Below are positions 9,701-29,184 of a DNA stretch of 36,463 bases, piece after piece. The DNA is from a virus: IMG/VR virus record IMGVR_UViG_3300047493_000005, positions 1 through 36,463 of that record; one strand, given 5' to 3'. How positions within the stretch are numbered: the first letter of the stretch is position 1; the number at the start of each line of letters is the position of its first letter. The position numbers and the translations under genes were made by a program. Below the pieces are notes generated by a model. The model did not search any database. It was not told the origin of the DNA and saw only the letters and a program-made list of their open reading frames with translations.

Positions 9701-10837
9701 AGTTAATCCATTGACAGTAATATTGTTATTAGAAGAATCTGTAATTGGAGCATGCTTTAAGTTAAAAATATTCGTAATAGGTGGTAAAACTTCTCTTACA
9801 GATTGTAAAGTAGTAAATACATCTATCGAAGTAGGATCAACAATTATTCCCAAGCCTTGATATTCGTAAGTAATATTAATACTAAAAATTTGATCTAAAG
9901 AAAATAGAGGGTCTTGTAAAATGGCTTCATTTATTTTAATTTGATTATTTTCCAATAATAAATAACTGGAAGCATTAGCTTGATCATATTCTGAATTTAA
10001 GATTTGATATCCTAAAGTAGATAAATTGTAAGTATAAACTGGATGAGTGGTAGTCAAAGTAAAAACTATACTATCTACTCTTGACACTGGTCTGTTGCTT
10101 AAATTAAAGGTTAAAGTATTAATATTAAAAGTTCCAACATCATTGTTAGATGAAACTTTAATATTTTCTGTAATAAATTGTCTTTGTAAAGTAATTGGAT
10201 AATTAGGAAAATCAGAAAATACAAAAGAATTACTTACTGGAGCATTAGTAGGTCCAAAACCTACACGGGTAACATTATAAACTGATTCTTCATTTAAACG
10301 ATCAAACGGACCAGTTCCTCGTAAATGAGCTTCATCTACTACATCAAAAGAAAGATAATTTTCATTTTTAAGCTGTTTAATATCATAAAGTGCCTGAGCA
10401 AAATTAACTGCTACAGATTGAATATATGAAGAAACTACAGTAGTAGGATCTGTAATATTATAAATATTATTTCTATAAAATGATTGTAGATAATCTAATA
10501 CAGGGTTGTCAGATTGAATTGGTCCGCTAATTAAGAAAACGTTAGAAACGCCATCTGGAGAGATTTGCGCATCACCATTGACAGAAATAAAGGGACTATT
10601 AACAATTGATTGAAATTGTAGTAAATAAGAAGAGTATGGAGTTAATGGTTGGCAAGTTATTGATAATATATTATTACTTACACTAACGGCTAACACTTTA
10701 GAATCTGGCACATTAGCTGATTGTGAAATAATAGAGGCATTACCTACTACTAAATTAGGAGTTAAACTTTCATTAAAAGTAATATCAATATTAGAACTAT
10801 TTATGATATTAACATTTCTTATTCTAAGTATTTTCAT
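3797..10837 (-). CDS. Giant baseplate/tail fibre protein with LamG-like lectin domains (2346 aa)
   Basis: The largest gene here, overlapping the J-like gene by ATGA (start 10837, J stop 10834-10836), so the two are probably translationally coupled. Residues 1-80 look like a bacterial Ig-like domain (VNIINSSNIDITFNESLTP, then PLTPYSSYLLQF). Two concanavalin A/LamG-type units are visible. Unit 1 has EGTFETWIIPQWNG near 1055, a conserved FIDGLEV with D1280, and a closing FYIGTDF at 1813. Unit 2 has IEFWMSP (W1939), FIDGYEY (D2175) and FWIGSDY near 2220, followed by LLDNLRISN. These folds usually bind carbohydrate or make protein contacts, so cell-surface recognition or outer-baseplate architecture is likely. 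The first unit is interrupted by about 530 residues. By position it may also stand in for the gpI/gp7-type protein that follows J/gp6 in other phages, but I see no direct similarity. Confidence 0.65.
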   Translation of the reverse strand: MKILRIRNVNIINSSNIDITFNESLTPNLVVGNASIISQSANVPDSKVLAVSVSNNILSITCQPLTPYSSYLLQFQSIVNSPFISVNGDAQISPDGVSNVFLISGPIQSDNPVLDYLQSFYRNNIYNITDPTTVVSSYIQSVAVNFAQALYDIKQLKNENYLSFDVVDEAHLRGTGPFDRLNEESVYNVTRVGFGPTNAPVSNSFVFSDFPNYPITLQRQFITENIKVSSNNDVGTFNINTLTFNLSNRPVSRVDSIVFTLTTTHPVYTYNLSTLGYQILNSEYDQANASSYLLLENNQIKINEAILQDPLFSLDQIFSINITYEYQGLGIIVDPTSIDVFTTLQSVREVLPPITNIFNLKHAPITDSSNNNITVNGLTLINPNSNGMPHPAFLLEIPFSLSALPSSPGVFAVDYLTGTVYVYGADFTNDGTGPSPPLASYYYQFTYTSEIDYVYDLTTSSIVALPLGNLLNNVGIIDFNYQQVLIPGIDYNADTHIESLNEPINNNLIALNALTTQNSPITDVFQIYNQTSGEIYLLDRWNNNTVYFRYNNPPRILSETGENVSFAEITNELLTVNTTSIINGITILTIYLANNNIISSTQDCIGSSINSSLTFTNGNVFVSEIWYNQNVNVSNNINRLSVGEYTVDYINGIIYVAGAAQDLGTANYKMNDITPNFPHLISVNDIYYRISVLNPVNKKFSYISFENNSIIPANLDFSDESLLNGVALSPYQLLNTSVGAFVDETFVPGVSNAVKFVRSVYEYNDLFNNKYPLNFVNVSNSNNFNINVNSITNQSFETIQFDGTNYYILLNLNLSYLSPDITYNFSMVRTSDSQQLWNNSGTIVVGSPIKLILPGINSPAAGEVVNVNYTFTINNLSRVVVDYNKGDFFIDYNYLADEILVSYEYGDNQLDFRQNTNLPAGSQYYVSYQVGALRSALLANFGTLVNVPDLANFDLTLNRERYRDALYAALSSFIQGPTVAAIKNIVQTITHIEPQVIESAFQVWSLGSNLLTPVGIQTTGEFQLLPAHFNNGVLINTPSQTITLPVNSNLRLEEGTFETWIIPQWNGLDNDAEITFNILQDGNPIQPSKIFISGSEYHPNNNIFTLNKSDGLGTPNLNKDGIFIYYDTFQTYQRWYVQVVDGYINPANHIYKIEIITNGKFYDNKPFNKSSNLSVFSGTNKINLTITPLAGNIGINEGLTFVADVEHYLLDFGLNINANRLSIYKDVSGYINFRVFDKNQISSTVSANVSSWIPGVAHMVAASWKLNTVNSRDEMHLFIDGLEVPNIISYGQKSSPNEKFRTINPEEIVGLSNRDIVGSDDLTTTINTPFVSSSINFSQYNVDVGDSIDINESGFGSYIIQGIDGQTLTLNQNLPSSITNGKFSINQTSFDVSSNINVVPNISVSTIHTFISGTLNTIVNNNQINSTTNFTTSNVLPGFLLRIDNVNFNLTYEIIAVNNNILTLNAKMPISLSGLIFQIYSNTETELPGVRALDPDYIISQDGYFNNILTITNGVLENDLILINTLGLNYRNVNQSCYIWSNGVENVLMTQLPAPISLDQVNITKILLPNTVVGLTNSTIVGNQFISNHITMSQPSNTTVGRTISATISGTNINFTTPTAITINGMSGMTVISETITFNNYETLNFVTLWTEINYVQVNTNTINPAKNALAIKIQETDPITQAQSNEIVPVIRYSYSMGSGTNLTSFGNMATDPDYLFSYADVNNYLIVSSVGYLITGLLSDRHSVIVNTTLPSFSNTSFQVLNTTDYRSGLQNGFFTFETTPGQPWYLNNGTYQLNYATYLSVKFQPLNNDFYIGTDFNGNNIVNGIMDQFTLNSIMLTDTRIGEVVVNNIGSVTKDFNSLTVPTANMNTLVLITFDNFPFTNSASFYAATNNDHIHFQSDFAVNDNFDQSIVILDKPILVPNLGILNTTSQATIEFWMSPLFDTANDPNDRFYFDAYGAIVEQISSVSNVVVKLNNPASKILSVSLANGDPKVDYFAGGKLEIDTQNAIQEDIIPQNINTITVSNPILQVITVKIVGDFTGTDYFNNGSISSNKKTIYLGTALPSTNLEVIVIYQTTNNNNTTLNSQVIRLNKELPAQNCLVSVKYIPAGLQGDRISVFKDIYGYINFGITASNIDYVIRAETRLAKNTWHRIKASYQVNSGVGTDNMRLFIDGYEYTDVYVGPDQTPGQFPVVIGSNIGDGYNLISSIVFKDSINNFWIGSDYNNTNPIFTLLDNLRISNIARPIYAPYGEPIDVNYSNNLSVVFPVTQDLYTTYLLDFNTEVALITNFATLIDRSSGGFDFTVNVFDDFGIVASNPQIKQILESLINILSPGTSTPYIKYIN

Positions 10838-13800
10838 ATGGATTCAGTATTAATTATTATATTATTGGGTTGGAAATATTGATCTTGATTGGCTTGAATG
10901 CTTAAAACTTGTCCTGATTGTCCATCAACATTAAATTTTAATATTCTGGCTCTGTCAATACCTTGTATTCCTTGTGCTATATTTATTAAAGTAATTTGAT
11001 TTATCTCTGGTCCTAAAGTAGTGCTGGTTAAAGCTGCTATTAATTGATTTCTTAAGTTTTGTAAAACAGTTGTTTGAGTATTAATATAATTAGCATTAAT
11101 TACTACATTCATTGTTAAATCAATTAATACTATCTTTCCAGCTCTAACTAAAACATCTGCATTAATAGGTCTATTATTTTCAATTACAAAAGTAGTTGTT
11201 CCAATTAATTGATTATAATTATAATTAATTAATATTCTTTCATTTTCTTTTGGAGCTAAATAATTATAACTCGTGGTATATCTGGCTCCTACTGCTGGTT
11301 TAGTAAAACTGGTAGCCGTAAACTTGGTAGATTGTGATGATTTAAATCCGCTGCTAACAAATAGTTGATTAATTAGCGCAAACTTCTTGTTAGTATATAA
11401 CGAACCAATCTTAGTATATTGCAAATTTTCTACATCATTATCAATAGTATAATAAAAAGTAGTTGATAACTGATCTCCTATGGTAGGAAGATTAGTAGTG
11501 TTATTTACAGTATTAGGTAAAATACAAGTCAAATTATTAAGATTAGTATTTGCTACCATAGTATCTATATAATATAAATTATTAGCTATTTGAGTATTAA
11601 TTACATCATATGTTGCTAAAGTTTCTAAAATAATATTACTTCCAGTAGTGAAAGTTTCTACTTTAGACATATTAATAATTTTAATTAATTTTACATTATT
11701 AGGAATTGCTGTATTAGAATTTAATCCTAAAGCACTCTGAATTGCCGCTTGTAGATTTTGTTGCAATCCAGTAGTAGTTGCAGTAAATACTGTATTATAT
11801 TCCCATAATGTAGTTCCAGCAACTGAAATCACTCCCGTATTTAAAGTCTGATCTAAAGTAGTTCCAATGATTCTGGTCGGGGCTTTTTTTAAATTATTGA
11901 AATTAAATAAGTTAATATAAACCAAATCATTAACTATAGCATTAGTGCTTTTGGGTATTAATAATCTATTATTAACTAAATCAATTGTTCCATTATAACC
12001 AAATAATTCTTGTCCATCTAATAATCTAATAATAGATACTTGATCTTTAACAATTTTATTTAATGATAATCCAATAGTAATATTATTATTAGCATTATTA
12101 TAATTTAATATTTGATAATAACCATCATTATTGGGGGCAGTGGCTCCAGTAATTTTAACTTTTTTATTAGTTAAATCTATTAAAGTAGAGAAATTAACAG
12201 AGGGGCTACTAATTATAGCTGTACTAATATTGGGTGTTAAATATCCATCAGTAATATTAAACAATACAGCATTACTATTTTGTTCTACTATTTCAAAATG
12301 CAATCCACTACTTTGCGCAGTAAATTGAACTAAAGGTGCCACAAAACTATTAACAGATCCATCAAATCCTAATCTACTTATATTTGTTTTAATAGTATTA
12401 TTACTAAAACTAAATGGTTGAAATCTTCTAATATCAGTAGTATAATAAATAACCAAAACATTATTAGCCGATACGGGAGTATTGAATCCAGTTAAGATTA
12501 ATTGATAATTACCATCTAATCCTGTAGTTATTTGACCAACATTATCACTATTCCAAAGCTCTAAACCGTCAGATATTCTAATTATTGATAATACATTTAA
12601 AATATAATCAGTAGCTAAACAATTTATTTCTACATATAATTGATTGCTTAAATTAGTTTGCACTATCTGAGCTTCTCTTCTTGAAATATTAGTAATACTA
12701 AAATTAGTAAAACCATTATTATTGCTTAATATATATCCATTTCCTATTCTACTAGCAGGTAGCAAACTATTAACAGATGAATATAAATCACTAACACTGG
12801 CAATATAATTAACCCTTAAATTAATAACATTTGCACCATTTAATAATGATGTTGGAATGGTTAACTGTGTTCCATTACTACTTCCTTGAGCGGTATTTGA
12901 TTGAAATACATTATTATAATTTAAATACACTGTAGCATAATCTCCTACTACAGCTAGAGTATCAACAGGTAAAATAATAGTAGTGGTATATACAATACTT
13001 ACATCTACCACTTCTGTCATAGAAGAAAAATATCCATTATTTTGAGCGGTATTATATAATTCTACATTAGAATTTTTCCAAGTAATTGAATTAATTGAAT
13101 TAGTAGCAATAGCTAAGTTATTAATAACTATTGACAATCTATTAACAAATGTTCCAGAAGTAATTAATTGAACATAACCATCCACTTGCAAAAATGTATT
13201 TGCTGAAATGATAGTATCTACTGGATGAGAAGCATTCCCAAGATAGAAATTATTACCGGGACTTAAAGTAAAAGAAACTAATTCATTACTAATGGCTGAA
13301 GGATAGCCCCAATCAATACTATTACTAACGGGTCTGGGATTATCAGTATCAACTAATCCATCAAAATCTGAATAACGATCATAATCTACTACCCAAGTAT
13401 AATCCACCTGCAATACATCACTGGGAGAAGGTAAAGTATTTCCTGAGATTTGAATAATGCCGGTTTTATTAAAAGGAGAAGTGTTATTAACGTTTTGATT
13501 AATAATTAAATATCTTTCTCCAGTATTAACGTTAAATACCCTGGTGACATTAGTGATTGGAGTGTGTAATAATTGAATTAAAGAACGATCACTCATTACT
13601 ATACTATTTTCATTAGTCACACTTAACTGTTGCTGACAATCCGTAATCTGCAATACACCAGTAAAAGTAGTTGGGTCTTGTCCATTAGTTTGCCCTTTAA
13701 TTAAATCTTCTTGATAATCAATTTGATTGCTTTTCCATGCAAAAGTATCAAATCCAAAAGGACTCCCACCATAAACTCCAGTATCTTTTATTAATTCATA

Positions 13801-14895
13801 ATTACCAGAACCTCTACCATAACCATCTACTGTATAAGGAGTAAAATTAGAACCGCTAACTGATCCCGTCACCTGTACAATACCATCTACTGGTTGAGCC
13901 GGTAATTGACCATTTTGAATATCTATTACTCTTTTTTGACTAATACTTAAATTAGCATTAGAAGCAATTTGTCCTAAAACAAAATTATTTTTAGCATTGG
14001 TAGGATCATTATCATTGCTTTTATCTTGATAAATAAAAGTATCTGTATTAGAAGTATCGCTTGTTCCCAGTACTACTATATCTACCTTGCCTCCAGACCC
14101 TTCTGAAATGATAGTTAGTATTCCATTAACTAATTGTGAAATGGTTCCATCTCTGGTCATTAAGGGATTGCCCGGACCAATCACTACTGCATCTTGAACT
14201 CCCGTGACACTTAATGCGGCATTCAAATATCCTAAAGTAGTTCCAACACTGCCACCACTAAAAGTAGCTAAAACTCTAGTTCTAAAAGCAGCGTCTGTTT
14301 CTTGATCTGTTCCACCACTAAAAGCAACTATGTTGGTGACGTTATTTATCCCACCTATACTTACATTAGACAAACTATATTGTCCAATATTTCCAGATGA
14401 ACCAGGAGCTGAAGCAGATACAGTGGTTTCGATAGCGTACTGATCAGTAATTCCAACAAATGCTAATTGAGCAGCAAATTGAGTGGCGGTAGAACGATAG
14501 GCATTAATATTAGAGACAACTAAAGATGTTCCAGTTAAAACAGTAAATCCTAAACCGCCAGAAGTATAAATAGGAGAACCTGCATTAATATTAATGGTAG
14601 AGTTTAAAGAAGAAAAAGTTAATAGCGCCACACCAGAAGAAGAGGTGGATTGTTTTCTAACTAATCCAAAGTTTTTAGCTAATTTATCTAAATCAGAACC
14701 TACTGACAGTCTTAAAGATTGCTTGCTGGAAACGCCTTGAAGTTCGTCATATAATAATGATAATTGAGAAGCCGGACCCTCTATGAATAAATCACGAGCT
14801 ACTGTTCCAGGTTTTGTATCAAGAGTAGGTTGTGCCAACTGAAAAAAATCAAGCAAGCCAGCAATAATTGTATTTAAACCTCTAATATTAACCAT
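10834..14895 (-). CDS. Baseplate wedge protein, J/gp6-like (1353 aa, large internal insertion)
   Basis: The N-terminal 270 residues have the hallmarks of the phage baseplate J family (Mu gp47, P2 gpJ, T4 gp6 core). A helical start contains KPGTVARDLFIEGPASQ, followed by LDKLAKNFGLVRK. Next come a beta domain with INAGSPIYTSGGLGFTV and the signature FSGGTDQETDAAFRTRV, followed by VTGVQDAVVIGPGNP. The family's C-terminal domain reappears at about 1240-1353 (DVLVRAGKIVLIDLTMNV, then LRNQLIAALTSTTLGPEI, then GIQGIDRARI). J proteins are typically a few hundred residues long, so about 900 residues of repetitive beta-type, Asn/Thr-rich sequence are inserted between the halves. The protein forms the wedge ring that joins hub and periphery. 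The start at 14895 overlaps the end of HNH endonuclease 3 by 8 bases, and the 3' end overlaps the next gene by ATGA. Confidence 0.86.
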   Translation of the reverse strand: MVNIRGLNTIIAGLLDFFQLAQPTLDTKPGTVARDLFIEGPASQLSLLYDELQGVSSKQSLRLSVGSDLDKLAKNFGLVRKQSTSSSGVALLTFSSLNSTININAGSPIYTSGGLGFTVLTGTSLVVSNINAYRSTATQFAAQLAFVGITDQYAIETTVSASAPGSSGNIGQYSLSNVSIGGINNVTNIVAFSGGTDQETDAAFRTRVLATFSGGSVGTTLGYLNAALSVTGVQDAVVIGPGNPLMTRDGTISQLVNGILTIISEGSGGKVDIVVLGTSDTSNTDTFIYQDKSNDNDPTNAKNNFVLGQIASNANLSISQKRVIDIQNGQLPAQPVDGIVQVTGSVSGSNFTPYTVDGYGRGSGNYELIKDTGVYGGSPFGFDTFAWKSNQIDYQEDLIKGQTNGQDPTTFTGVLQITDCQQQLSVTNENSIVMSDRSLIQLLHTPITNVTRVFNVNTGERYLIINQNVNNTSPFNKTGIIQISGNTLPSPSDVLQVDYTWVVDYDRYSDFDGLVDTDNPRPVSNSIDWGYPSAISNELVSFTLSPGNNFYLGNASHPVDTIISANTFLQVDGYVQLITSGTFVNRLSIVINNLAIATNSINSITWKNSNVELYNTAQNNGYFSSMTEVVDVSIVYTTTIILPVDTLAVVGDYATVYLNYNNVFQSNTAQGSSNGTQLTIPTSLLNGANVINLRVNYIASVSDLYSSVNSLLPASRIGNGYILSNNNGFTNFSITNISRREAQIVQTNLSNQLYVEINCLATDYILNVLSIIRISDGLELWNSDNVGQITTGLDGNYQLILTGFNTPVSANNVLVIYYTTDIRRFQPFSFSNNTIKTNISRLGFDGSVNSFVAPLVQFTAQSSGLHFEIVEQNSNAVLFNITDGYLTPNISTAIISSPSVNFSTLIDLTNKKVKITGATAPNNDGYYQILNYNNANNNITIGLSLNKIVKDQVSIIRLLDGQELFGYNGTIDLVNNRLLIPKSTNAIVNDLVYINLFNFNNLKKAPTRIIGTTLDQTLNTGVISVAGTTLWEYNTVFTATTTGLQQNLQAAIQSALGLNSNTAIPNNVKLIKIINMSKVETFTTGSNIILETLATYDVINTQIANNLYYIDTMVANTNLNNLTCILPNTVNNTTNLPTIGDQLSTTFYYTIDNDVENLQYTKIGSLYTNKKFALINQLFVSSGFKSSQSTKFTATSFTKPAVGARYTTSYNYLAPKENERILINYNYNQLIGTTTFVIENNRPINADVLVRAGKIVLIDLTMNVVINANYINTQTTVLQNLRNQLIAALTSTTLGPEINQITLINIAQGIQGIDRARILKFNVDGQSGQVLSIQANQDQYFQPNNIIINTESI

Positions 14896-15706
14896 TTATA
14901 ATTCCATGTCTAATTCCACTTAAACCATCTACAATATTTTGTTTAGCTGAATATGGTCTTAAATTATTTAAATTCCAACAATCTTTAAAACTTTGATCTT
15001 CCATACTTGTATATTGAAACAATGAATGAGGTATAATATGATCTATTTGCCAAGTCCAAGTTGTTTGATCATTATCTCTCCATATATTTGCCCAATATAC
15101 GCCATGATTTTCCCAAGTCATCCAAGGTTCAAATAAACTTTCTAAATGATTTTTTAAGTCTTGTATTGTATATGACAAATACATTAAACAAGATTTTTTT
15201 TGTTTTGTTGAATTATTTTTTTTTAATGAATCATTAATAGAACCGGAAATTAATTTTCTTATTTTAGAATTAATATTATTAATTTCTTTTTTTTTCATAT
15301 ATGCAACTATAAATCCAGTAAAAAAATTAATAAAATTTTTACTATTTTTAAAATTTTGTTCTTGTTGTCTTTTAATTCTTTTACGATAATTTTTATTTAT
15401 TTCATTATGATTTTTTAAATGTTTTTGTTGATATTTTTTTTGTTTTTCCAAAATATTTATCTTGTTTTTTTCATATCTTTTTTTATTTTGTTTTAAAATA
15501 TTATGTTTATTTTGATTATAATATTTTAATGACTTATTATTATATTGTTCTTTATTATTTAGATAATGTATTTTTCTATATTTAGAATAACTAAATGATA
15601 CACATTTTTTACAAGTATGAGCGTAATAAATCTTATTTTTTTTAGATTTACTTCTAAACTCTAATATGTCTTTTTCTATATTACATTTATTACATATTTG
15701 TTTCAT
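14888..15706 (-). CDS. Free-standing HNH homing-type endonuclease 3 (272 aa)
   Basis: An N-terminal four-cysteine zinc-finger-like motif (C5-x2-C8 and C32-x2-C35) is followed by a long Lys/Asn-rich, probably helical or coiled linker (about 45-160). The HNH nuclease core follows: YTIQDLKNHLESLFEPWMTW, then WQIDHIIPHS near 218-226, and CWNLNNLRPYSAKQN. Asp-His and the downstream Asn match the beta-beta-alpha-metal active site of this group. Such enzymes cut DNA to promote their own spread between phage genomes and have no tail function. The gene lies between gp25 and J: its start overlaps the gp25 stop by ATGA and its stop overlaps the J start by 8 bases. Its linker region is even richer in A/T homopolymers than its neighbours, which suggests separate ancestry. 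Part of it is identical to the right-edge copy. Confidence 0.88.
   Translation of the reverse strand: MKQICNKCNIEKDILEFRSKSKKNKIYYAHTCKKCVSFSYSKYRKIHYLNNKEQYNNKSLKYYNQNKHNILKQNKKRYEKNKINILEKQKKYQQKHLKNHNEINKNYRKRIKRQQEQNFKNSKNFINFFTGFIVAYMKKKEINNINSKIRKLISGSINDSLKKNNSTKQKKSCLMYLSYTIQDLKNHLESLFEPWMTWENHGVYWANIWRDNDQTTWTWQIDHIIPHSLFQYTSMEDQSFKDCWNLNNLRPYSAKQNIVDGLSGIRHGIING
14975..15019 (-). repeat. 45-bp perfect direct repeat, copy A (in HNH 3)
   Basis: Bases 14975-15019 are identical to 36254-36298. The repeat encodes the stretch around FQYTSMEDQSFKDCW of the HNH core in both genes. Identity then continues with scattered mismatches towards the DHIIPHS codons. The copies lie about 21 kb apart and have the same orientation. 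Confidence 0.85.
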
Positions 15707-16134
15707 ATTGTAGTCACCGAAAATTGTGTTGATACCGGTTGATATCCCTTAGTTAAAACTTTAATAAATATATTATATAATCTTGGGTCAGTTTTAGATT
15801 GAACTACTGATACTCCTAAAATAGCTCCTAATTGTTCATCTGCGCTAACTTTCTGAAAATTTTTAAGTTGTAATTGTTGCAAAGATTGCAAATTAACTAA
15901 GCAAGTATTAATTTGAGATTTAGCTATTTGAACTATAATTCCAGGTTTGGCAGGATTTCCAATTACCGTTTTAGATAGAAACGAACCATAAGAAGGGTGA
16001 ATTGGATTAGCTCCAACATCCGTTAAACAAATCTTAAGAATATCTTGAATAAGCTTGGCGCTGTTAGTTACGGTCTGTAAAGCACCGTTTGCAATTACCA
16101 AATCACCAGAGACAATTGAAAGATCAAATGACAT
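15703..16134 (-). CDS. Baseplate wedge protein, gp25/W (GPW) family (143 aa)
   Basis: A short protein matching the gp25/GPW lysozyme-like wedge family in length and pattern. It has an N-terminal strand pair with DLVIANGALQTVTN (11-24), the helix LIQDILKICLTDVGANP (28-44), and the conserved YGSFL (49-53) that follows it. A C-terminal domain with repeated strands (LYNIFIKVLTKG) completes it. In T4 and P2 this protein joins the J/gp6-type wedge and helps nucleate sheath assembly. An AAGGAT ribosome binding site precedes the ATG, after a 49-base gap from the upstream gene. In other myophages gp25/W lies directly before gp6/J; here HNH endonuclease 3 separates them. The assignment is firm. Confidence 0.9.
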   Translation of the reverse strand: MSFDLSIVSGDLVIANGALQTVTNSAKLIQDILKICLTDVGANPIHPSYGSFLSKTVIGNPAKPGIIVQIAKSQINTCLVNLQSLQQLQLKNFQKVSADEQLGAILGVSVVQSKTDPRLYNIFIKVLTKGYQPVSTQFSVTTI

Positions 16135-16183: not shown

Positions 16184-17995
16184 TTATTGATTCAAATTAT
16201 TTCCACTGATATCTTGAAAGGACTTATCCATTATTTGATACAATCCATAAACAGTATTAGCATAGTTTTGCATCGCTGTTTTAATATCATTTTGCGCCGG
16301 TAATTCTCCTAAAGAATCTGTAGCTCGACTATAAGCATCTGTATCTAAAAAGCCCAACAAATCTTCTATATTAATAATATATAAAGCTTGAGTAATAACT
16401 AAAATATCTCCTAATCCTAATCCGCTAAACTCTCCCATAATCATTTCAATTACTTGCAAAGCGTCTGATGCCTTACTTAAATCATTATTTCTTTGTTTAG
16501 CTAATTTATCCATAGTATTAGCACTTAAATTACCAGAAGCATTAGAAGTGCTATTATTAAAAGTTTTAATTGGACTACTAAAAGCAAACCCACCTTTGTT
16601 AGGCATAGAAGTTGGGGCGGCAACTAAAGAATTAAGATTAGAGAAAAAAACTTGCAATTGATTTAAGATAATATTAGTATCATCAGGAGTTAGCAATCCA
16701 AAAGATTGCGTAGTAAATGGAACATCTCTAATATCACATCCAGCTTCAGGACCAGAAGTGTTAGGTTGTGGTAGCCAATAATATTTAGCTTGTGCCGCTT
16801 GAACTTTATGAATTGATTCTACTAATTTGTAAATTAAAGCTTGGGTATTATAAATAAATTCAATTAAAGATTCTTGTTGATCACTAGAATAAGCAGAATT
16901 ACTAAAAATACTACTTAAAGAAGTTCCTCCAATTTGAATTGTTTGAAAAGATTTAATATTTTGCACATATTGAACATAATTAGTTCCAAGCAAGCCAGAG
17001 CTGGTAGTATTATTAGATTGATTAATTCTATCTGTTATCACCTTCTCAATAAAAGGTCTTAAAGCCGTAGACGTACTCCCTGCCTTTAAAAAGGTTGCAT
17101 CAGGAACAAATGGTACTGCTACCCTCCTACATGTACCTACAGCGGTAGCAGAGTCATTTGACCAAGTGCTAAAATCAATTCTAGGATCAACCATAAATGG
17201 AAGTATAATATGCTGATGTTGTTGAAAAATAGGATTGTTAGTTCCATTAGTAGTTAAGGTATTACCAGAATTATCTTGATAAGATAAAAAAGGAATAAAT
17301 TGATTTCCCACTAAACTAAATTGATTAGTGGAATATGATTGGTCTGTAATAGCAAAATCAAAAGGATCGCTATCTATGTTCTTAGTGAATGGAGCAGAAA
17401 AAGTTCTAATATTAGTAATGTTTGGACCAGAATATGTGCCAGAAGATAAAGCTAAAACTCCAGCTTCTACTGAGGTAGGTATGGCAAATATTTTACCAGT
17501 GGAAGATACCCAAGTCTCCCGAGCTTGAGATATAGATTCAAATTGAGGACTAACTTTAGAAGCTATATCTATTTTTATACTTAAAGTAATTTTTCTACTA
17601 ATTGGATTGCCAGAAGAATCTGTTTCTTTAATAGAATCTAATCCTGGATTATAATAAGAATAATCAGAAGCTATAACTGGAAATCCAATCATTCTAAAGA
17701 AAGCATGACATCTACTTTCTTGAGCCCTAACAACCGGGGTAGTAGTATTTGGTGTAGGAGGTGGGGTAATATTTTGAGAAGTTGGACTAATATTTAAAGA
17801 AGTTAATAAATTAGTTGTTTTAGTTCCTAATATTCCTACATTTATTACTGCTCTAATATCATCTATTCCCACACTGGAAGAATCATTATCATTAGGTGTA
17901 TTTGCCCCCGTAATATAATCCTTGTAAGTATCTACAATATTAATATCACTATTTTGGGGGCTTTGATAATTAGATTGAGGAATGTTAGTTGCCAT
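16184..17995 (-). CDS. Unknown virion structural protein of the baseplate module (603 aa)
   Basis: I do not recognise a family. The ATG at 17995 (MATNIPQSNYQSP) is preferred over the upstream GTG at 18034, because it has an AGG about 10 bases upstream and overlaps the previous stop by only 11 bases. The N-terminal 90 residues are Pro/Thr/Asn-rich and probably flexible. A conserved-looking core starts near residue 94 with SRCHAFFRMIGFPVI. The middle is mixed beta (about 100-330). The C-terminal third is helical (SLIEFIYNTQALIYKLVESIH, then DALQVIEMIMGEFSGLG). No transmembrane span or catalytic motif is visible. Its place between the hydrophobic 722-aa protein and gp25/W makes a baseplate component likely. 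Confidence 0.5.
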   Translation of the reverse strand: MATNIPQSNYQSPQNSDINIVDTYKDYITGANTPNDNDSSSVGIDDIRAVINVGILGTKTTNLLTSLNISPTSQNITPPPTPNTTTPVVRAQESRCHAFFRMIGFPVIASDYSYYNPGLDSIKETDSSGNPISRKITLSIKIDIASKVSPQFESISQARETWVSSTGKIFAIPTSVEAGVLALSSGTYSGPNITNIRTFSAPFTKNIDSDPFDFAITDQSYSTNQFSLVGNQFIPFLSYQDNSGNTLTTNGTNNPIFQQHQHIILPFMVDPRIDFSTWSNDSATAVGTCRRVAVPFVPDATFLKAGSTSTALRPFIEKVITDRINQSNNTTSSGLLGTNYVQYVQNIKSFQTIQIGGTSLSSIFSNSAYSSDQQESLIEFIYNTQALIYKLVESIHKVQAAQAKYYWLPQPNTSGPEAGCDIRDVPFTTQSFGLLTPDDTNIILNQLQVFFSNLNSLVAAPTSMPNKGGFAFSSPIKTFNNSTSNASGNLSANTMDKLAKQRNNDLSKASDALQVIEMIMGEFSGLGLGDILVITQALYIINIEDLLGFLDTDAYSRATDSLGELPAQNDIKTAMQNYANTVYGLYQIMDKSFQDISGNNLNQ

Positions 17996-20153
17996 TATTA
18001 TTCCTGTCTGGCTTGCCAACCGTATCACCTTCACCAGTTGATGGAATATTATTATTGAATGGAATATTATTGAATGGAGTGTAAACGAATTCGTAATCTA
18101 AACTCTGTAAAGTATGTGAAGGCGTTCCACCTACAGGCATACTATTATTACATAAAATTTGATTCTGAAATGCTATCATAATACTTCCATTACCGGCTGT
18201 TTCGCTGGTTAATAATGCATTAAAAGCCTTATATCCATCATAAGAAAATGAAGATATTTCTCCAAATGTTGGATAAGCCGTAATCTGAGAAGCTAACTCA
18301 TTTCCAATAATAGCCGGAACTACATTAGCGATGGGCAAACCATTATTTTCATTTAGATTAACCGTCACCGTAATAGGCTGAGTAGTGAATTGTGTGCTTG
18401 GAGTTAAAGTAAAATTACTATTACAAGGAGAAAAACCAATTCCCATAACTGCTACTAATGCGTTTTGAGTATTATTCTGTAGTGTTGCTAAACAAGCATT
18501 TGCTGAAGCTTGAAATTCCGTTACCCCGGCTGTAGTCATATTATTTCTTAATATCGACATAGCATTTAATAAACAAGTTTGAGTTGCCGCCGGATCAGGA
18601 AAATCAGGAGAATTAACTAAGTTTTTTAAATTAGAAGTCTGTGTATTAATGTTAGAAAAAATAACATTATTCACAAATGCTTTATTTAATGCAAAGGTTG
18701 GCTGACATCCTAAAGTAATTAAATTAGCCTGCATCAATACTGCTTGATTAGGAGTAAAAGTATATTCTACATTTGGTAATATCACAACTCCTTCATTTGA
18801 CAATGGAGGAGGAGCTGCTGAAAATGTAGGAGCTAAATGTATAAAATTACCCAATGTAGCCTGTACAAATGGCATCAATGGAGCTGCTGTATTAGTAAAA
18901 GTATAACCATCAATTGGAGTAATTCCATCTGCTAAATAACCTAAACCTCCTGCAATTAAAACAACTCCATTGGGAACTGAAAGAGCGGTATTAGTAGTGT
19001 TGTCATAACCAGCTAATGCTTGTGTTGGAGCTGCTAAAATAATACAATTCTTAAAGATAATTTTTTGAGCGTTTCCAGTTCTTCCCCAAGTAGATGGATT
19101 ATATGGTACTGTAATATCTAAAGTATACGCAGCTTGAGCCGGAGGAGTGGAATCTGTAAAAGTAGAAGTAGTTGGAAAATATACTGGAGGAGTATAACCA
19201 TCAGCAATTACATCGTAAGCACTTGAAATATTCCAAAATTGTTGAGCTAAAACCTGATCTGGATCATAGAATTGCCAAGATTCCGTTCGAGAGTCTATGT
19301 TAAGGAAACCAGATGGAGAAACTGTAGTTGGTACTGGAATAGTTGTTTGTGTTCCTACTTCTGAAGTATATTGTAAAACACCAGTATTATTAGTAAATGG
19401 AGCTTGCACAATTCCAGGACAAGTTAAAACACCACAACAAGTGCTATTATCTCCACTATCACAAGGCGGAATAGCAAAACTTAAACTTAAAATATCTTTA
19501 ATAGCTTGAATGATAATAGCAAAGAAAGCTAATAATACAAACAAGTTTTGAAATATACATAACAAAGCCCCAAGTTTGTTAGCAATAGCTAAAACTCCAA
19601 CAGTATTAGATTCTTCAAAAGCTATAACTAATGCAACAATGTTTCTAATTAAAGCTAAAACAAACTCTATAATTTTTAAAATAATATATTCAATTAATCT
19701 TAATAATAATAGTAATAGGGCTATAATCATTAATATTAATGCAAATATTGGAAATAAATTAAGAAACGCTGGAATGCATTGGGTGAATAATTTATCTAAA
19801 GCCGAAATTAATGCAAAAGGATTAACTAAGGCACATAAAACTTCTATAATGCAAATAATAAGATTTAAAATGGGTAAGAAAAACTTATATAGCAATAAAA
19901 ATGGCATAAACTGATCTAACAACTTCATAATACCATCAAAAATATCTTTGCCAAAATTAGGATTCAACGCAGGTTGTAATAATCCCGGAGGAATTAACAT
20001 TTGCAAATTGTCAAAAATATCTAACAAGTCTTCTGGAAAGCCAGCTGGAAAAGTAATGGAAGGAACTGGAAATGAGAATGGAATGCCAAATCCTGGTATC
20101 GCGGGACCAGAAGGAGATGTTGGACTAGGAAAACTTATTGGATCACAAGGCAT
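17985..20153 (-). CDS. Polytopic hydrophobic protein in the baseplate module (722 aa)
   Basis: No family recognised. Residues 1-45 are Pro/Phe-rich (PGFGIPFSFPVPSITFP). Residues about 82-228 hold four or five strongly hydrophobic segments (roughly 82-112, 128-152, 157-180, 186-216, and 218-228 as a tail), including LILMIIALLLLLL. A cysteine cluster follows at 231-245 (CDSGDNSTCCGVLTC). The remaining 470 residues are beta-type, Asn/Thr-rich and resemble the neighbouring structural proteins. The hydrophobic block is predicted to enter a membrane or form a buried helical bundle. The gene starts one base after HNH endonuclease 2 stops and overlaps the next gene by 11 bases, so it belongs to the tail operon. 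The location suggests a tail-tip or ejected protein acting at the host membrane; a holin is less likely because of size and context. Confidence 0.6.
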   Translation of the reverse strand: MPCDPISFPSPTSPSGPAIPGFGIPFSFPVPSITFPAGFPEDLLDIFDNLQMLIPPGLLQPALNPNFGKDIFDGIMKLLDQFMPFLLLYKFFLPILNLIICIIEVLCALVNPFALISALDKLFTQCIPAFLNLFPIFALILMIIALLLLLLRLIEYIILKIIEFVLALIRNIVALVIAFEESNTVGVLAIANKLGALLCIFQNLFVLLAFFAIIIQAIKDILSLSFAIPPCDSGDNSTCCGVLTCPGIVQAPFTNNTGVLQYTSEVGTQTTIPVPTTVSPSGFLNIDSRTESWQFYDPDQVLAQQFWNISSAYDVIADGYTPPVYFPTTSTFTDSTPPAQAAYTLDITVPYNPSTWGRTGNAQKIIFKNCIILAAPTQALAGYDNTTNTALSVPNGVVLIAGGLGYLADGITPIDGYTFTNTAAPLMPFVQATLGNFIHLAPTFSAAPPPLSNEGVVILPNVEYTFTPNQAVLMQANLITLGCQPTFALNKAFVNNVIFSNINTQTSNLKNLVNSPDFPDPAATQTCLLNAMSILRNNMTTAGVTEFQASANACLATLQNNTQNALVAVMGIGFSPCNSNFTLTPSTQFTTQPITVTVNLNENNGLPIANVVPAIIGNELASQITAYPTFGEISSFSYDGYKAFNALLTSETAGNGSIMIAFQNQILCNNSMPVGGTPSHTLQSLDYEFVYTPFNNIPFNNNIPSTGEGDTVGKPDRNNNGN

Positions 20154-20154
20154 T

Positions 20155-20811
20155 TTACTTTTCTTTCTTATGTCTAACTCTTAAAGAACCTTCTATAATA
20201 TTTAATTTAGCCGAATATGGTCTTAAATTAGATAGTTCCCAACATTTTTTAAAATTATCTTCTTTCATATCTTTGTATAAAAATTCAGATTGTGGAATAA
20301 TATGATCTAATTGCCAAGTCCAAGTACAATTATCTTGATCATTCCAAGTTTGCTTGTCATATCTACCATAATTATTCCAAGTCATCCAAGACTCAAATAA
20401 TGATTCTAAATGACTCTTTAGCTCTTGCATAGTATAAGGTAAATATTTGCTACAAGATTCTTTATTCTTATTAATGTTTCGTCCAATTTGAGTTGAAATT
20501 ACAATCTTCATTTTATATAATATATCATTATGATATTTATTTTTTCTATAATTATTTACATTTTGTTTTAATTGTTCTTTGGTTTTTAAAATTCTAACTT
20601 TTTTAACTTTGGGTTGTTTAATTTTTAATACCCTATGTTTATAATAATATTCAGAAGATTTATTTATTTTATATTCTTTATTATTTATATATCTTTCTTT
20701 TTCTTTAATATTGAAACAAGATTTACATTCATTTCTATGTTTATTATTATTTCTAATATAAAAATTATCTAATTCTTTTTCCATTAAACAAATCTTACAA
20801 ACTTTAGCCAT
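20155..20811 (-). CDS. Free-standing HNH homing-type endonuclease 2 (218 aa)
   Basis: The ATG at 20811 (MAKVCKICLMEKELDNF) is chosen over the GTG at 20847, because the protein then begins directly with the usual four-cysteine finger (C5-x2-C8, C29-x2-C32). It is followed by a Lys/Asn-rich linker, then YTMQELKSHLESLFESWMTW, WQLDHIIPQS (near 165-172) and CWELSNLRPYSAKLN. These carry the Asp-His and Asn residues of the HNH active site. Homing-type nucleases of this kind spread themselves and are not part of the virion. The start overlaps the preceding stop by 8 bases, and the stop lies one base before the next start, so the insertion leaves the operon intact. It is a diverged relative of the other two HNH genes. 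Confidence 0.86.
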   Translation of the reverse strand: MAKVCKICLMEKELDNFYIRNNNKHRNECKSCFNIKEKERYINNKEYKINKSSEYYYKHRVLKIKQPKVKKVRILKTKEQLKQNVNNYRKNKYHNDILYKMKIVISTQIGRNINKNKESCSKYLPYTMQELKSHLESLFESWMTWNNYGRYDKQTWNDQDNCTWTWQLDHIIPQSEFLYKDMKEDNFKKCWELSNLRPYSAKLNIIEGSLRVRHKKEK

Positions 20812-21175
20812 CTTGTCCTGGCACATCATCTTCATGAGGTCCGACACTTGAAGAACTCAGATTTAGAGAATGTTCAACTTCTTCTATAACTTTTTCAGCT
20901 AAACTTTCTAAAGTTTGATTAATTTTAATTACATCAGCACTATTAAGATCGTGATATTTAATAACGCAATTAGCTAATTTCCATAAACCATTATAAATAT
21001 CATCTTGTAATTGATCATAATTATAATTATGATTTTCATCTTCAGGAACTGAGCCAATTGAATTTAAAACTCCAAAAGCTAATTTGGTTAAACCCTGTTC
21101 TTCGGCTTCTTTTGCTTGCAACATTAATTTATTATAAATGACATTATTTAATTTTTTCATAATTTCCTTAGACAT
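20804..21175 (-). CDS. Small unknown helical protein after the spike (123 aa)
   Basis: Not recognised. The protein is predominantly helical, with Leu/Ala heptads at 9-40 and a second helical region at about 55-105 (YDQLQDDIYNGLWKLAN, then LESLAEKVIEEVEHSL). It ends in an acidic, Gly/Pro-rich tail (GPHEDDVPGQDG). There is no signal peptide or membrane span. The start at 21175 shares its first base-pair region with the spike stop (TGATG). An in-frame ATG at 21160 has the better ribosome binding site (AAGGAA) and could be the real start, giving 118 aa. Coupling to the spike gene suggests a baseplate assembly or chaperone role, but nothing in the sequence proves it. Confidence 0.55.
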   Translation of the reverse strand: MSKEIMKKLNNVIYNKLMLQAKEAEEQGLTKLAFGVLNSIGSVPEDENHNYNYDQLQDDIYNGLWKLANCVIKYHDLNSADVIKINQTLESLAEKVIEEVEHSLNLSSSSVGPHEDDVPGQDG

Positions 21176-23310
21176 CAGATAGACCCACCAAACACTTTAT
21201 TGACACCACGTTGCTGAATTGTTAAAGTTTCGCATTCAATCTCGATATCGCTATCTGATGTCAGCGTCATTCCCTGGCCTGCATGCACAGCAATTCTTCC
21301 CGGACTCATCAGAACCATACCTTTTTGATCAACTCTAATAATATTAACGAAACCTGAATTAAAGATTCTAATATCTAAAACTCCATTATGTAATCCATCT
21401 TGACCTAATGCCGTAAATCTGGCATCTCCAGCAACACCATAACCACCAATTTGAACGTAAGCATCTCCATCCATGCCCATCACTAAACTCCTTTGATTAA
21501 CATCTCTTCCAAGATTAACTACAGCCCCACCAGCAGTATCAACCCATAATGATTGACGATCTACTGTATTAGCTCCAAAATTAAATTCCATTGAACCATC
21601 GAAATTAATAGAACCACTTCTTCCTCCAGCATTACCATTAGGATTTGTTGGAGTTCCATTAGTTCCAACACTCCCTATAGTAATAGTATCACTGACAACA
21701 TTAGTTAAATTGGTGATATAACTTAAATCTGGTGAATCTACAGCTCCAGTAGGATAAGATAAAGTCATATTATTTTGATGCACGCTACAAGTTTGTAAAA
21801 TATCGTGATAAGCTGTTCCGTGTTTAATATTATAAGTCGTTACACCGGTAGAAATATTTCCATTGGGAAATTGACTAATTCTATCTGTGGGCCCCAAATT
21901 AGCAGAAGTAGTATTATCTTGTAAAGTAATACTGCCGTGAGCAAAAGTAGTATCAAATCCAGCAGCACTACTACTTGGAGTTTTCATTGGAGCAGCAAAT
22001 GAATCCACAAATATATCTTGACTAACATTTTGCGCAGATTGAACGAACCACAATTGATTAGGATTGTTATTATCTGTAGTAGCAAACGTGGAATAATTTT
22101 CAGCCCGAGTCAGCAAAGGAATATTTCCCGATTCAGAAGAAGCTGGAATATTAACTTTAATTTGTCCTTCTTTATCTACATCAAAAGAAAATCTACTTCT
22201 TTGTAATTTAGCATTATAATTGTCATCATTAATAGTTAATGCAGAACCTTGATTAAATGGATTAGGATCTTTTCTAGCATTTAATTCAAAATGATAAGCA
22301 ATTCCTTTTCTTTCTAAAGCTCTAATATTTTGATAAGCTTGTGATGGATTAGTATTAGCAGTAGTTCCATTGTTTCTTAAAGTGGTAGTAGCTGACATAC
22401 CTACTGGAATAGGTATTCTATTGATATCTAAAATATTACCAAAGATATCTACTACCGTTCCCTTAACTTCTTCTATTAAGAAATTAGGAGCTACTAAACT
22501 TAAACTCATAGTATCTGATCTGGAACTTCTTCTATTAGGAGTGCCATAAGTTGTAGCGCTAGTAGTAGAGGCTAAATATTTTCCAGCTTCCAAAGTATCT
22601 GCATCAATATGAGATTTAGGTTGAAACTCATAAAACATTTGTCTATGTTCCACCAGTGGAGGATTTTTATTTGATCCAACTAATAGATCATTAGAAGTAG
22701 AAGTTGGATCTAATCCAATTAAAATTAATTGATTATCATAATCATCATCTTCTAATTTAGTATTTCCCGTAAAAGAAGAAGCTTGAGGATTTGGAACAAT
22801 ATCTCTTTTAATTGTTCCACCCACTTCTCGATAAGATTGATTAAAATGATTTTCATTTTCAAAATTAATAGTAATATAATTGCTTTTAGGAAATTGTTGG
22901 CTTCCAGCAAAAATACTAACATTATTAACATCTGAACCAATCTTAATATGACTATCTTGATTCAAGGTCATCTTAGAAGTATCAGAACTAAAAATTAATA
23001 ATTCTCCTAAATTAAGATCAGGAATAATACTAGGATTTTCAGGAGCATAACTAACAAAATAGTATTTACCACCTGAAGCCTGTGCTACTGCTACTGGAGT
23101 ATTCTTAGCTGGTAAAGAACCAACAAATAATCCATTGCTATCAATGTAAGGAAAACTCCCAGGAACTGACACTGGTTGAGCTTTACCCTGAATTGCTGAA
23201 GTGCCAGTCAAAGCAACTTGCAAAGTATTAGTATTAACATCGTAACCAACAATAGAGCCAGAACGTATTAGCCCAACAGGCGGATCAAAAGAATTAGCTC
23301 CTTGTTTCAT
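21175..23310 (-). CDS. Central tail spike/puncturing protein, gp5/gpV-like (711 aa)
   Basis: The N-terminal 130 residues look like the OB-fold found in central spikes of contractile tails (RSGSIVGYDVNTNTLQVAL, then PVAVAQASGGKYYFVSY). The C-terminal part, about 560-711, has short Gly/Asp-punctuated strands (SGSINFDGSMEFNFG, DGDAYVQIGGYG, MTLTSDSDIEIECETLTI) consistent with a trimeric beta-helix or beta-prism needle. The protein should sit under the hub and pierce the outer cell layer when the sheath contracts. Between these parts is a long beta-type insertion. No lysozyme catalytic domain is visible, unlike T4 gp5. The start overlaps the hub stop by ATGA, which supports hub/spike co-translation. 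No PAAR-like tip protein gene was identified in the window. Confidence 0.72.
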   Translation of the reverse strand: MKQGANSFDPPVGLIRSGSIVGYDVNTNTLQVALTGTSAIQGKAQPVSVPGSFPYIDSNGLFVGSLPAKNTPVAVAQASGGKYYFVSYAPENPSIIPDLNLGELLIFSSDTSKMTLNQDSHIKIGSDVNNVSIFAGSQQFPKSNYITINFENENHFNQSYREVGGTIKRDIVPNPQASSFTGNTKLEDDDYDNQLILIGLDPTSTSNDLLVGSNKNPPLVEHRQMFYEFQPKSHIDADTLEAGKYLASTTSATTYGTPNRRSSRSDTMSLSLVAPNFLIEEVKGTVVDIFGNILDINRIPIPVGMSATTTLRNNGTTANTNPSQAYQNIRALERKGIAYHFELNARKDPNPFNQGSALTINDDNYNAKLQRSRFSFDVDKEGQIKVNIPASSESGNIPLLTRAENYSTFATTDNNNPNQLWFVQSAQNVSQDIFVDSFAAPMKTPSSSAAGFDTTFAHGSITLQDNTTSANLGPTDRISQFPNGNISTGVTTYNIKHGTAYHDILQTCSVHQNNMTLSYPTGAVDSPDLSYITNLTNVVSDTITIGSVGTNGTPTNPNGNAGGRSGSINFDGSMEFNFGANTVDRQSLWVDTAGGAVVNLGRDVNQRSLVMGMDGDAYVQIGGYGVAGDARFTALGQDGLHNGVLDIRIFNSGFVNIIRVDQKGMVLMSPGRIAVHAGQGMTLTSDSDIEIECETLTIQQRGVNKVFGGSI

Positions 23311-28343: not shown

Positions 28344-29171
28344 TCATAATAAACTAACTAATAAATCACTTAAACTGCCAGAAGGTGGTTGAGCTACAGT
28401 AGCATCTCCACTAAATGATCCTGGAGTATCGTAAGAAGATGCTCCTGAAACTGGAGAATTATGCCAGGGAAAGTAATTAGTTCTATAACCACTTCTTTGC
28501 GTCACCACAAACTCCATACTATAATCTAATAGAAAATTATCTGCTTTTTCCGTTATCGACATACCATTAAAATATCCTTGATATGACCAACCATTATAAT
28601 ACATCTGAACTGAAAATGCCAAAGAAGCTAATGTTGGTATATTTCTAACTGACAACATATTATTTGGAGAATCTAATCCTAAAATACCACCTAATAATCC
28701 ACCAGCTGAAGGAGGGCTTCCAACTACTTGAGATAATGCTCCACCAATACCTTGACTTAATCCATTAGATAAATCAGCAGAAGCATTATTAGCTGCCAAA
28801 GTAATTCCTACTGTATCAAATGCATATTGTTCTGCTCTATAGATTTCATAGAGCATATTAATGCCTTCAATACCTGAACTTCCAGTAGTTCCATCAATAT
28901 TAAGAGTGCTTAAGTTCTCTCCCCAATATTGTAAAGTAAATCCACCTTTAGTTCTTTCTTTATTAATTTGTTTAGAATGATTATATTTAATATTTTGTGG
29001 ATTAATAAACATTTCCACAGTTCCATATTGAGGAACAAACCAAGTAATGATATTGCGAGTAATAACAGAATCTACTCCAGGGGTTATTTGAGTAAATGGC
29101 AACCCATTAGGAGGTGGAGCAGTTGCTCCCAACAAATCACCTACTGTATTAATTACATCGTCTAAAGACAT
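28344..29171 (-). CDS. Tail tube/hub adaptor (LysM-less gp53-like position), 275 aa
   Basis: The ATG at 29171 (MSLDDVINTVGDLLG) is chosen over an upstream TTG at 29297, because the longer version would overlap the tape measure end by over 100 bases and an AGG lies just before this ATG. The protein has a strand-rich segment with FINPQNIKYNHSKQINKER (56-73), GGFTLQYWGENLSTLNIDG (77-94) and a helix GINMLYEIYRAEQ (103-115). A second beta part has FSVQMYYNGWSYQGYFNGM. A pattern of 'NPQ...K.RTKGG...YWG...L...G.TG' recurs in tape-measure-adjacent baseplate proteins that cap the tube and contact the hub. The Gly/Ser-rich C-terminus has no domain. Role is inferred from position and pattern. Confidence 0.55.
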   Translation of the reverse strand: MSLDDVINTVGDLLGATAPPPNGLPFTQITPGVDSVITRNIITWFVPQYGTVEMFINPQNIKYNHSKQINKERTKGGFTLQYWGENLSTLNIDGTTGSSGIEGINMLYEIYRAEQYAFDTVGITLAANNASADLSNGLSQGIGGALSQVVGSPPSAGGLLGGILGLDSPNNMLSVRNIPTLASLAFSVQMYYNGWSYQGYFNGMSITEKADNFLLDYSMEFVVTQRSGYRTNYFPWHNSPVSGASSYDTPGSFSGDATVAQPPSGSLSDLLVSLL

Positions 29172-29184
29172 TTTTACCTGTGAA

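Follow-up and report, generated by a model that had tools for sequence, protein, structure and literature searches.

The window analysed here, 36,463 bases in length with a GC content of 31%, corresponds to positions 1-36,463 of the IMG/VR virus record IMGVR_UViG_3300047493_000005. It harbors a contractile-tail module in which the large genes are all located on the minus strand, as are all further features for which coordinates are given below. The genes are ordered as sheath, tube, two small genes, a 746 amino acid (aa) protein at the tape-measure position, a 317-aa protein, a 1675-aa hub-like protein, a 711-aa spike-like protein, a 123-aa protein, an HNH-endonuclease-like open reading frame (ORF), a 722-aa protein (hereafter TM722), a 616-aa protein, gp25, a second HNH-like ORF, baseplate J and proteins of 2346 and 1161 aa. 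The sheath (33270-36122), the gp25-like baseplate wedge/sheath initiator (15703-16134; PHROG 2669, E = 6e-14; Pfam Sheath_initiator, E = 0.003, below the Pfam cut-off) and the gp6-like baseplate J wedge protein (10834-14895; Pfam Baseplate_J, 3e-20) were identified by family matches. The tube, tape measure, hub and spike are putative assignments derived from position and a reading of the sequence. These include the 746-aa protein (29185-31425), which is encoded between the tube/assembly genes and the hub, and the predicted spike (21175-23310), a fixed neighbour upstream of TM722 in the loci examined.

The TM722 gene (17985-20153) is an ORF with an ATG start, and its end is overlapped by 50 bases by the start of the downstream gene encoding the conserved 616-aa neighbour (16184-18034). 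Between the spike and TM722 lies a gene for an acidic helical protein of 123 aa (20804-21175), which is found in approximately half of the loci. Where it is lacking the absence is clean and the spike gene abuts TM722, and as such a role as an obligate dedicated chaperone of TM722 was rejected. The two HNH-endonuclease-like ORFs (14888-15706 and 20155-20847) have related ORFs scattered across the tail module in relatives, the variable sites being those expected for mobile homing endonucleases. The hydrophobic start of the 317-aa ORF (28344-29297) is probably an artefact, with a TTG start that overlaps the tape-measure gene; translation more likely begins at a later ATG, a start that would remove this hydrophobic stretch.

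Successive queries of IMG/VR recovered 32, 69, 78 and 80 TM722 loci, many of them on contigs of 200-480 kb, and stretches encoding relatives occur in at least 127 places in this database. The protein is conserved along its full length in 81 distinct homologs. As an independent bait, the baseplate J protein was used to fetch 80 loci, of which 78 reach far enough upstream to be usable. A conserved place in the baseplate operon, as expected of a contractile-tail baseplate component, was observed in all 78, with TM722 located between the spike and gp25. Nearly all of the baited loci encode the protein at full length, and no second domain architecture was seen. TM722 is hence a core gene of a huge-phage lineage. 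Scans of the protein against Pfam, PHROGs and NCBIfam identified no relatives, tblastn with TM722 family members against a phage collection of 50,697 records (phi29 included) returned no match, and no description was found in the literature, the coverage of which was incomplete. TM722 represents a new family.

Several of these loci show individual features. In a Chitinophagales metagenome-assembled genome (L104; JAIXLO010000160.1), TM722 is encoded on a 383-kb contig, while a sheath match in the assembly is spaced as would be expected if both lay on one contig; this contig is probably a huge phage binned with its host, providing a hint of a Bacteroidota host. The 616-aa neighbour is split into two ORFs (380 and 191 aa) in locus L071, and the TM722 ORF of L095 is, at 851 aa, above the usual length. 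In a divergent group (L353-L361) the sheath, of approximately 820-860 aa, matches the window sheath in two pieces, without approximately residues 390-528, suggesting that the insertion domain differs.

The original prediction described a Pro/Phe-rich leader, four or five long hydrophobic segments and a cysteine cluster in the N-terminal part of TM722. The leader (residues 1-66; 19956-20153) is present and conserved, is predicted to be disordered (pLDDT <50) and carries Cys3, which occurs in 80/81 homologs. It is followed by a helical block, residues 67-226, with 19-residue Kyte-Doolittle (KD) means of 2.68 (92-110), 3.25 (133-151), 2.42 (161-179) and 2.71 (197-215). Among 20,000 composition-preserving shuffles of TM722, the maximum was matched in 13, four segments of at least 2.4 appeared in one, and the mean over 147 residues was reached in none. 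Hydrophobic helix 1 (residues 82-110; 19824-19910) contains the conserved residues K90, E104, Cys101 and Cys107, while the predicted helix 2 (helix 112-132, within residues 111-132; 19758-19823) is amphipathic, with a mean net charge of +2.2, and carries Cys126. The most hydrophobic segment (residues 133-157; 19683-19757) forms the start of a 46-residue helix 3, the amphipathic continuation of which (residues 158-180; 19614-19682) is charged in relatives and has a hydrophobic moment of 1.55 (p<0.001; 152-180). The hydrophobic part of helix 4 (residues 197-217; 19503-19565) contains Cys199 and the pair Q202-N203. Furthermore, K90, E104, N171, K193, Q202 and N203 are conserved polar or charged positions inside the long helices, conservation in the block is not limited to one helix face, and the charge distribution indicates no clear membrane topology.

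Across the family, the block can be reduced to three strongly hydrophobic segments. Segment 133-151 contains a single charged residue among the 1,539 cells of the 81 distinct homologs, indicating that in none of these does the helix turn a side towards water. The family means at the three segments are 2.41, 3.05 and 2.42, all above the common hydropathy threshold of 1.6, and TM722 thereby shows the property expected of an integral membrane protein, namely several segments above this threshold across the family. Four segments, in line with the four or five of the original prediction, do exist in the window protein, but 161-179, the end of the 46-residue helix, is usually amphipathic in the family, with 17% charged cells. 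Conservation within the protein is highest in hydrophobic segments 1 and 3, with identities of 0.76 and 0.75, compared to 0.39-0.44 for the C-terminal part. For six neighbouring families (gp25, 317-aa, spike, 616-aa, baseplate J and hub) the best family-mean window does not exceed 1.69, and TM722 is the only multi-segment hydrophobic protein in the tail modules of the loci examined. The observation of a polytopic-looking protein embedded in the baseplate cluster was borne out, and the interpretation first placed on it in part.

TM722 contains 15 cysteines. Those at positions 3, 101, 107, 126, 199, 231, 239, 240, 245 and 483 each occur in at least 79/81 homologs, and Cys527 and Cys554 in 75/81, so that the cysteine feature comprises 12 conserved positions and extends beyond the single cluster first noticed. 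The hydrophobic block contains four of these, and another four lie in the linker that follows it (residues 229-246; 19416-19469), which has the pattern PPC-x7-CC-x4-C (C231, C239 and C245 in 81/81 homologs, C240 in 79/81). The six neighbouring families have no conserved cysteines, or one in the case of the hub. The TM722 cysteines probably hold a metal or disulfide-locked core, with a metal site, an Fe-S site or a disulfide lock as possible forms. Precedents are found in the hub protein of RcGTA, which carries an Fe-S cluster with four cysteines (PMC7296036), and in the disulfide network of phage Milano (PMC10811340).

AlphaFold2 modelling with 30 homologs (mean pLDDT 74.9; pTM 0.52) predicted helices at residues 67-108, 112-132, 135-180 and 184-223, followed by a region of beta structure, a hairpin of helices and, at the C-terminus, a beta domain. 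The same helices were obtained when the block was modelled alone with 58 homologs, at a low-confidence pTM of 0.38. The C-terminus had been read as beta-type, which holds for a beta-rich domain of AlphaFold strands without a confident fold match (residues 251-470; 18744-19403) and for a predicted Ig-like domain (residues 576-695; 18069-18428), but not for the hairpin between them (residues 481-575; 18429-18713; helices 485-513, 521-537 and 541-573), which bears Cys483, Cys527 and Cys554. Foldseek comparison of the full model against the PDB identified intimin/invasin-type, IPT/TIG and filamin domains (E 4e-4 to 1e-2). To judge from the modelled strands, these Ig-like matches most likely belong to residues 576-695; a weak PDB profile match covers residues 638-696. 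The top PDB match, an MBP chimera (E 6.5e-5), aligns at an rmsd of 28.5 A and was set aside. The PDB sequence search yielded nothing significant, the full model had no match in BFVD at E<=0.001, and the N-terminal block had no PDB match with E <1, its weak list, a mixture of channels and soluble helical proteins, being likewise set aside. Assignment of the hydrophobic block to a buried bundle of a known baseplate component would have counted against the original prediction; the modelling returned long helices with no match to such a component, and likewise no membrane fold.

Compared between the window and 22 relatives, the protein at the tape-measure position has a length of 690-797 aa and a maximum KD window of at most 1.55 (0.89 in the window protein). 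It is devoid of hydrophobic segments in 23/23 phages, which agrees with the original reading that the tape measure of this phage has none. At its C-terminus, a CPHCG-type cysteine pair (CxxC) is found in many, but not all, relatives. By the same KD measure, three segments exceed 1.6 in P2 gpT and one each in T4 gp29 and SPO1 gp11.2, while Mu gp42 (maximum 1.29) and lambda gpH (1.59) have no segment above 1.6 and the phage G tape measure gp183 none above 1.8. The premise that membrane spans are usually supplied by the tape measure is therefore weakened, and the lack of spans in the present tape measure is not unusual, as Mu, lambda and phage G also lack them; the notion that span-free tape measures are exceptional was rejected.

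Among the other tail and baseplate proteins checked in P2, T4, Mu, SPO1, phage G and lambda, the highest window, 2.07, is that of T4 gp7, a baseplate wedge subunit whose record nevertheless states 'predicted integral membrane domain'. Only phage G gp193 lies above this value; encoded outside the baseplate genes, this unannotated protein of 242 aa has one 2.32 segment at its very N-terminus. The TM722 maximum of 3.25 also exceeds the 2.35 of the phi29 holin gp14. The membrane-active phi29 gp9, however, reaches a maximum KD19 of only 1.29, indicating that hydropathy does not track a membrane role.

Membrane activity at the tail tip is already known or proposed for phi29 gp9 and the RcGTA megatron, and TM722 can as such not be considered a wholly distinct delivery design, as was first suggested. 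The hydrophobic L-loops of gp9, packed in the tail tip as a bundle of helices, exit to build a helix barrel whose outer surface is hydrophobic (PMC6542822); comparable storage is only proposed for TM722. Phi29 is, however, a short-tailed phage in which gp9 is the knob tube itself and the loop is moderately hydrophobic (1.29), and the tblastn comparison with the phage collection provided no match between TM722 and gp9. Pore formation has been proposed for the N-terminus of the RcGTA megatron, which thus resembles TM722 in having a proposed N-terminal membrane-entry element on a baseplate protein, while a four-cysteine cluster is present in the hub protein (PMC7296036). In the non-contractile RcGTA the iris helix is short (residues 7-16 of 1,304) and the cysteine cluster resides on a separate protein, and sequence and fold searches with TM722 identified no gp27-like hub domains.

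The prePAAR effectors of the T6SS similarly combine contractile delivery with a spike-linked N-terminal transmembrane block before a larger C-terminal part (PMC7773334). A relationship to these effectors was rejected: the AARxxDxxxH motif occurs in 0/58 TM722 homologs, 30 members gave no Pfam match to a PAAR domain at E<=5, and the adjacent 123-aa gene, which is not an obligate neighbour, has no match to the Eag-type (DUF1795) chaperones. Tape-measure spans have been proposed to act in DNA entry for P2 gpT and the TP901-1 TMP, where mutants left the role unproven (PMC5099701). Here, in contrast, a separate baseplate protein has the segments and the tape measure none; TM722 is itself not the tape measure, as that place is held by the protein at 29185-31425 and TM722 follows the spike.

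We propose, with a probability of roughly 55%, that TM722 is a virion baseplate component whose hydrophobic block inserts into the host membrane as the DNA is delivered. The beta/Ig-like C-terminal part would hold the protein in the baseplate near the spike, with the hydrophobic block kept shielded in the virion. Upon firing of the tail the block would become exposed and enter the host membrane with three spans (92-110, 133-157 and 197-217), from which helices 3 and 4 would project with their charged ends; this proposed geometry, with its charged helix 3-helix 4 tip, is deduced from the helix limits and hydropathy. The inserted protein may then anchor the tail tip or help to line the DNA entry channel, a role assigned in some phages to the tape measure. 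We infer the presence of TM722 in the virion, its membrane insertion and the timing thereof, its role as pore or anchor and the role of its cysteines from the combined features described above. A more far-reaching proposal is doubtful: here a lineage of huge contractile-tailed phages would have handed the task of spanning the membrane in DNA delivery over to a dedicated baseplate protein, polytopic and cysteine-locked, in place of the tape measure, and this protein would open as an oligomeric entry pore in the host membrane.

The predicted helices, of 40-46 residues, are longer than the thickness of a membrane and include conserved polar residues, which argues against membrane insertion. Such long continuous helices with polar residues inside, as well as the conservation on more than one helix face and the single hydrophobic stretch in the wedge subunit T4 gp7, would suit a block that stays out of the membrane altogether and forms the buried oligomeric hydrophobic core of the baseplate hub or wedge, for instance as a bundle surrounding the tail axis. 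We consider this unlikely, given the three segments with few charged cells in 81 homologs, one of them with practically none, the absence of a comparable baseplate protein in P2, T4, Mu, SPO1, phage G, lambda or the TM722 cluster, and the lack of a fold match to a known baseplate component.

Less probable again is a function of TM722 in the infected cell, where it would serve as a membrane anchor, either as an assembly platform tethering nascent baseplates or exposed on the envelope, and would not, or not mainly, form part of the virion. The succession of an N-terminal membrane block, a Cys-rich linker and an Ig-like domain does resemble a surface protein, and the best fold matches are bacterial adhesin domains; Ig-like domains are, however, common in virion proteins too. 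A membrane protein, CisA, is reported to be needed by Streptomyces CIS (PMC12237407). The strict place of TM722 between the spike and gp25, and its co-conservation with structural genes, argue against such an anchor. That TM722 is an artefact, be it from a mis-called frame, from hydrophobicity arising by chance or from a chimeric contig that carries a bacterial gene, found no support and is refuted by the counts of full-length homologs (81) and of IMG/VR places (at least 127), leaving this explanation with a negligible probability.

The passage of contractile-phage DNA across the inner membrane after arrival of the tube is unsettled, and the tape measure is often credited with the entry channel. 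Membrane insertion at the tail tip is itself already known or proposed, and TM722 would, if the mechanism holds, be a fresh version of this theme. No cultured member of the lineage was found in the 50,697-record phage collection; the combination of the hydrophobic block, invariant cysteines and a span-free tape measure leads to clear predictions, and TM722 provides a separate, highly conserved baseplate candidate that can be cloned and tested alone.
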